From Spongiactinospora sp. TRM90649 (GTDB lineage Bacteria; Actinomycetota; Actinomycetes; Streptosporangiales; Streptosporangiaceae): a stretch of DNA of 64,000 nt. The stretch covers positions 62,001-126,000 of the forward strand of contig NZ_JARLTC010000029.1 of NCBI RefSeq assembly GCF_029382225.1, given 5' to 3'. Made by a program: the position numbers and the translations under genes. Shown piece by piece: positions 56,002 to 57,865 of this stretch. A model generated the notes under the pieces. It was given only the letters and a program-made list of their open reading frames with translations, made no database searches and was not told the DNA's origin. Numbering within the stretch: the stretch's first letter is position 1; each line of letters opens with the position of its first letter.

Positions 56002-56005
<4 letters not shown>
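54749..56005 (-). CDS. DUF58 domain membrane protein
   Basis: A 418-residue protein. Two membrane helices (about 12-58, including GILIVTLPLLAALVVA) are followed by a beta-rich region with LRGRFPIGPLSVRITDPFGL and the DUF58 signature REYRQGDDLRRVHWRSTARYGELMVR. The rest folds like a VWA domain (ALLLDTRRI...) without a full metal site. DUF58 proteins pair with MoxR ATPases, and the signature histidine/tryptophan block is intact. The GTG at 56005 overlaps the MoxR stop, and its own stop overlaps tgpA. Function is unknown beyond this association. Confidence 0.9.
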
Positions 56006-57006
<1,001 letters not shown>

Positions 57007-57341
57007 CGGGCCTCCATGAGGGTGGTACGGCATGCCCCCGCGCGGGCGCTTTTGCGAGGGCCTTGCGTTTCTTTTCCATTGTGTGTACAGACACTACGTT
57101 GCCAGGGGTTCCCCGGCGACTTTTACCGGTTTCAACGGCTATTGCGGCTTTGTCGACGGCTTCCCCACCTCTCTCCACCACCGCCCTCCACCGCGGCCCG
57201 CATTCGCCGTGTGAAGGGTTATTCCGGCGCGCGACACGCCACGCCGACACGCGGGGGCGCCGCACCCCCGCTCCACTCCGCTCCACCGCTTTGAACTGCG
57301 AAAACGTCAGAGAAATGGCGAGGACACACGGCGACGATTAG

Positions 57342-57369
57342 TTGACGGTGGGGAGAAGTGGAGTATGGT
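57342..57369 (+). promoter_or_regulatory. Promoter of mraZ and the dcw cluster
   Basis: TTGACG (57342-57347) and TATGGT (57364-57369) are separated by 16 nt and match -35 and -10 elements. The predicted start near 57376 gives a leader of about 58 nt carrying GGAGG (57421-57425). The promoter is interleaved with the TGGNG repeats. Confidence 0.6.
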
Positions 57370-57383
57370 GGTGCGCAGTGGAG
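57349..57383 (+). repeat. MraZ-box array: four TGGNG repeats at exact 10-bp steps
   Basis: TGGGG (57349), TGGAG (57359), TGGTG (57369) and TGGAG (57379) lie exactly 10 bp apart and overlap the -10 element. In E. coli MraZ represses its own promoter by binding TGGGN direct repeats spaced in the same way, so autoregulation of this operon is strongly suggested. Confidence 0.75.
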
Positions 57384-57433: not shown

Positions 57434-57865
57434 GTGTTCCTCGGCACACACCAACCACGCCTGGACGACAAGGGACGGCTGTTCCTGCCGGCGAAGTACC
57501 GTGAGGAGCTGGCGGAGGGTCTGGTGATCACCAAAGGCCAGGAGCGCTGCCTCTACGTTTTTCCCGTAGAGGAGTTCCAGCGCATCACCGAGGCTCTGCG
57601 CGCCGCGCCGGTGACCGCCAAGGCGGTCCGCGACTACAGCCGTGTTCTCTTCGCGAGCGCGTCCGACGAGGCCCCTGACAAACAGGGTCGGATCACGATT
57701 CCGCAGCCCCTTCGCCAGTATGCCGGGCTGACCCGCGATTGCGTGGTCATCGGGGCCAACACGCGGCTGGAGATCTGGGACGCGCGTGCCTGGGAGACCT
57801 ACCTGTCCGATCAAGAGCAGGCATTCGCCGATCTGTCGGAGGAGGTGCTGCCAGGGATTCTGTAG
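57434..57865 (+). CDS. mraZ: Transcriptional regulator MraZ
   Basis: A 143-residue AbrB-like DNA-binding protein made of two repeats: [24 protein letters not shown] (about 1-24) and [25 protein letters not shown] (about 74-98), each with the DxxGR signature. It forms a ring-shaped oligomer and represses the division/wall operon. The GTG at 57434 gives the canonical MFLGT start with GGAGG 8 nt upstream; an in-frame GTG at 57425 would overlap that site. It is the first gene of the dcw cluster; 237 nt separate it from rsmH. Confidence 0.95.

Follow-up and report, generated by a model that had tools for sequence, protein, structure and literature searches.

MraZ proteins carry tandem MraZ domains and assemble into ring oligomers, and in Corynebacterium glutamicum MraZ reportedly controls ftsEX. 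LacI and GalR are looping repressors, in which an operator at the promoter is combined with auxiliary operators in helical phase. E. coli MraZ represses its own cluster (cited in the sections of PMC8475190 drawn on here). In E. coli MG1655 three GTGGG units at 10-bp steps lie from -44 to -24 of the mraZ start codon, and we found no opposite-strand site in the 400 bp upstream of mraZ in this strain. The MraZ site of Mollicutes is described in the same sections of PMC8475190: AAAGTG[T/G] is directly repeated at the mraZ promoter. In M. genitalium, according to those sections, these repeats occur nowhere in the chromosome but at the mraZ promoter, and complementation of an mraZ mutant succeeded in cis only (PMC8475190).

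Here we describe the mraZ-moxR gap of a Spongiactinospora-like actinomycete with a genome of 9.13 Mb. All coordinates are those of the whole 64,000-nucleotide stretch of DNA that was analysed, which we call the window. The gap holds a forward four-unit array next to mraZ and two minus-strand sites, A and B (Table 1). The array is like the E. coli Pmra operator in having GTGG-core direct repeats at 10-bp steps adjoining mraZ; unlike E. coli, this locus has four units and two inverted, phased sites. Direct repeats at the mraZ promoter are also what it shares with the Mollicutes site as described in the sections of PMC8475190 cited above, which mention no auxiliary sites of the kind found here. 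With C. glutamicum the likeness is that of an actinobacterial MraZ acting as a repressor, a role that is predicted in our case; the C. glutamicum target is said to be distant, whereas here the strict module has one copy outside the mraZ gap. Finally, the arrangement of a main operator on the promoter with helically phased auxiliary operators is that of LacI and GalR, from which it differs in the protein family (MraZ), in the rings, in the direct-repeat units and in the inverted orientation of the auxiliary sites, and in that looping is here a prediction.

Results

The mraZ product gave a Pfam MraZ match and was clearly homologous to the solved MraZ structure 1n0e (E 7.5e-22). Its DxKGR motif was invariant across the family sample, and an AlphaFold model of the protein had a mean pLDDT of 47 and was unusably poor. 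The closest MraZ loci were those of S. rosea and S. gelatinilytica, at 97% identity. We place the moxR start, probably, at GTG 57006, which follows a GGAGG ribosome-binding site, rather than at ATG 57033. Downstream of moxR are a DUF58 gene and then a transglutaminase-like gene, for which we kept the name TgpA from the initial annotation. The sole sigma-70-like promoter detected within the mraZ-moxR gap was the mraZ core promoter, the moxR promoter was assigned by conservation alone, and an Rfam search of the gap for RNA elements was negative up to E 5. A second minus-strand promoter over site A or B was considered and rejected, there being no recognisable hexamer pair at either place.

Table 1. 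Genes, promoters and predicted sites in and around the mraZ-moxR gap (window coordinates).
Feature	Coordinates	Strand	Remarks
mraZ	57434..57865	+	heads division (dcw) cluster; GTG start predicted from homologues
moxR (AAA_3)	56002..57006	-	first in divergent MoxR-DUF58-TgpA operon; start predicted
mraZ core promoter TTGACG-16-TATGGT	57342..57369	+	hexamers kept in relatives; overlapped by array
moxR -10 TAGTGT, probable	57091..57096	-	inside conserved promoter block
Main operator, four-unit array GGTGGGGAGAAGTGGAGTATGGTGGTGCGCAGTGGAG	57347..57383	+	unit T at 57349, 57359, 57369, 57379 (TGGGG, TGGAG, TGGTG, TGGAG)
Site A, auxiliary operator (predicted) GGTGGAGCGGAGTGGAG	57271..57287	-	first T 57285; units TGGAG 57285-57281, TGGAG 57275-57271
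Site B, auxiliary operator zone (predicted)	57163..57192	-	overlapping modules GGTGGAGGGCGGTGGTG (57192-57176), GGTGGAGAGAGGTGGGG (57179-57163); units TGGAG 57190-57186, TGGTG 57180-57176, AGGTG 57170-57166
Element beside A: TGAACTGC here, TGACCTGC in most relatives	57292..57299	+	7-8 bp from first T of A
Element GACACGCC, GACAC type	57233..57240	+	between A and B; conserved

The four-unit array lies over the mraZ promoter, ahead of the dcw cluster, and was kept in 80/80 named relatives. Throughout the 9.13-Mb genome, runs of at least three TGGNG units at 10-bp steps occurred solely in this array (the three-unit pattern gave two overlapping forward matches and no reverse match; the reversed-pattern control gave 1+1). 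The strict module RGTGGNGNNNAGTGGNG had four genome copies, three of them in the mraZ gap, two within the array and one at site A. The initial annotation had called the array solid and MraZ-type, overlapping the mraZ -10 and spaced at 10 bp as in E. coli, and all of this was borne out. Every unit that it named was found at the coordinates it gave; its description of B as TGGAG/TGGTG/AGGTG was thus correct in position, with the reservation that AGGTG is no TGGNG unit.

The distance from the array to the mraZ start fell into three clusters about 11-12 bp apart, which probably reflects clade history. Two forward four-unit arrays, at -157 and -105 from mraZ, were seen at locus L158 (family f19). 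In assembly G058, two contigs (C64 and C39; loci L166 and L167) held differing mraZ copies, each with an array and a site A, and the two copies may stem from a second strain within the assembly. The fourth copy of RGTGGNGNNNAGTGGNG, the sole one outside the mraZ gap, is at G000:C40:33712.

Sites A and B carry the array's two-unit module, including its GGTGG/AGTGG alternation, and array, A and B all have TGG-core direct repeats at 10-bp steps and share one module. When the 64-kb window was scanned with a position weight matrix made from the relatives' arrays, the four best matches, and five of the best six, were in the mraZ gap. A minus-strand two-unit TGGNG site was present in zone A of 62/80 and zone B of 56/80 named relatives, hundreds of times the density of such sites in the flanks. 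In the same 80 relatives a plus-strand TGGNG pair was absent from both zones, and pairs at 8, 9, 11 or 12 bp, as well as the reversed pattern, were rare there. We also scored 143 non-identical relatives, all with the array; the 99% shuffle level was passed by A in 96 of them and by B in 74, counts that depend on the threshold chosen, and by the plus-strand controls in 0 and 2.

The initial annotation had regarded the minus-strand arrays as weak, and they instead proved strongly conserved. The idea that they are chance matches in GC-rich DNA draws on the fact that lone TGGNG units and pairs are common in such DNA, and on the B of the window species, which is weaker than the stronger copy, GGTGGAGGAAAGTGGAG, found in many relatives. 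Set against the conservation, the strand bias, the genome-wide rarity of the module and the fixed spacing and phasing described below, it is hardly credible: a chance origin is refuted for A, and for B family-wide, and the window species' own B alone could be weak. Conversely, about a third of the genomes with the array had no A above threshold, and about half had no B, among them family f17 and most of f19. Since many array-bearing genomes, and even whole families, lack them, neither site is essential for MraZ function.

The first T of the array and that of site A are 64 bp apart. This distance was 63-66 bp in 86/96 genomes, and the remaining distances were one or two units longer (74/75 and 84/86). 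Among 38 representatives selected at <70% identity, identity was 83% in A, 86% in the array and 37% in the spacer between them; as the spacer has diverged while the distance has stayed fixed, it is the length that is conserved and not the sequence. The A+T content of this spacer was periodic at 10.75 bp, with a p value that is optimistic because the null was column shuffling, which ignores local correlation. Site B behaved differently from a fixed site: the array-to-B distances formed five clusters spaced one helical turn, and the A-to-B distances likewise clustered one turn apart, B being about 9-13 turns past A, so that B shifts by whole helical turns only (about 10.5-11 bp). The phasing of B at 10.5 bp was matched by none of 20000 random sets, and this held both for genus-level data and when repeated distances were entered a single time. 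A tree built from the coding DNA downstream placed at least 18 changes in the turn class of B (residual SD 1.4-1.5 bp). Units gained and lost on the 10-bp lattice may account for part of this whole-turn drift, so that the 18 changes are maybe not all independent tests of looping. Both auxiliary sites are therefore helically phased with the main operator.

Two further conserved elements accompany the sites (Table 1). The TGAACTGC/TGACCTGC element beside A was present in 70/96 genomes with A and 16/47 without it, and in different genera the GACACGCC element keeps a distance of 113-116 bp to the array. The GACAC of the latter resembles the WhiA core motif, and a sporulation regulator may act there. 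The fixed positions of these elements beside and between the sites would suit a role for A and B at the mraZ promoter that involves no bridging, either as decoys that buffer MraZ or by excluding a regulator at TGACCTGC or GACACGCC, and there is a precedent for another regulator in MtrA, which binds the Dietzia mraZ promoter (PMC9602371). Decoys, however, would need neither a fixed 64-65 bp step nor whole-turn phasing of B, and we consider a role of this kind quite improbable.

It had been proposed in the initial annotation that MraZ binds the minus-strand sites to control the divergent moxR-DUF58-TgpA operon, joining two envelope systems. Both sites do face moxR, and in most relatives they lie within its upstream region, but the proposal fits the rest of the evidence poorly. 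The conserved moxR -10 is about 80-190 bp downstream of A and B, and some 80 bp separate B from the moxR core promoter. The two sites neither overlap this core promoter nor are phased with it: no phasing relative to the moxR -10 was seen for any of the three (array, A, B), and the array was likewise unphased with the moxR start (p 0.2-0.4).

Genomes in which moxR has been displaced from mraZ bear on the same question (the sample includes one genome of family f2 and three of family f13). At L136/L226, where moxR is 3.1 kb off and a co-directional gene for an ABC-transporter ATPase is the upstream neighbour of mraZ, A and B are still at mraZ. At three loci of family f13 (L137, L166 and L223) a co-directional methyltransferase gene is upstream of mraZ and A and/or B are retained, while at L164/L165, where no moxR was found within 3 kb upstream of mraZ and a GatD-like gene is divergent, A is kept at 65 bp. 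Upstream of the displaced moxR genes of L136, L137 and L166 we found no site. The exception is L159: about 131 bp upstream of its displaced moxR, and on the moxR strand, there is a strong two-unit site scoring 20 bits, which speaks for control of moxR and is possibly a true moxR operator in that lineage.

The reverse case is given by genomes without MraZ. The Streptomyces-like family f18 (e.g., G044, G081 and G107; L190-L201) had no MraZ match and has kept the moxR operon, divergent from rsmH across a gap of mostly 1.0-1.3 kb, and the RGTGGNG module was found in this gap in 0/12 genomes. In G020, a member of the window's own family that lacks MraZ, there was no array before rsmH. Sites are thus present where MraZ is encoded and are lost along with it; because A and B stay at mraZ when moxR is displaced and vanish without MraZ, we conclude that they belong to MraZ and the mraZ promoter. 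Apart from L159, they do not track the moxR operon when it is split from mraZ. That A and B serve to control moxR is in our view unlikely, and a side effect of MraZ on moxR is possible in some lineages.

Discussion

From these patterns in the sequence we infer MraZ binding, cooperation, bridging and repression at this locus. We consider it likely that the mraZ/dcw promoter has A and B as auxiliary MraZ operators in phase with the array, serving an autorepression that would be cooperative and probably bridged or wrapped. MraZ bound at the four-unit array would cover the mraZ promoter and repress both mraZ and the downstream division cluster. It would also bind A and B, in which the two-unit module is the same but inverted; A has a fixed position about six turns (64-65 bp) upstream from the array, and about 9-13 further turns lead to B. 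Most likely, a ring-shaped MraZ oligomer would contact array, A and B together, the A-to-array DNA being wrapped and B reached by a loop, with repression that would be cooperative and in cis.

Several features point in this direction. Since the sites have stayed on one side of the helix despite drift of the intervening sequence, the MraZ ring most likely touches them jointly, and the fixed six-turn spacing, the whole-turn drift of B and the phased A+T patches argue for one protein assembly on one face of the DNA. Three conserved, predicted operators on one helix face suggest that MraZ bends or loops the DNA to shut off the cluster. The ring state, which we presume for MraZ of the 1n0e type, could serve contact with multiple sites; a constraint on looping is that a loop of about 62 bp demands strongly bent DNA. 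A more specific arrangement, quite possible in our opinion and offered tentatively, is that the array and the inverted A are gripped at once by a single MraZ ring or a stacked pair, with the A+T-phased DNA between them wrapped and B drawn in through a loop of whole turns; the result would be a closed repression complex over the division-cluster promoter, active in cis only. The cis-only complementation in M. genitalium would be compatible with such local assembly of MraZ and is no proof of it here.

MraZ structures in the PDB include 9qlr, 9qlg and 9sx6, and we found no MraZ-DNA structure paper in the literature searched. That literature, which omitted most subscription journals, also yielded no auxiliary, inverted, phased MraZ operators. 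The array itself is, by its sequence, the known MraZ operator, and the apparent novelty lies in auxiliary MraZ operators that are inverted and helically phased.

Direct control of the MoxR-transglutaminase operon by MraZ is probably not why A and B exist. MraZ is among the most widespread bacterial cell-division regulators, and auxiliary operators might help to explain why the M. genitalium mutant could be complemented in cis only. The helical register of these operators over much of the actinomycetes is a concrete clue that the MraZ ring contacts several DNA segments simultaneously.
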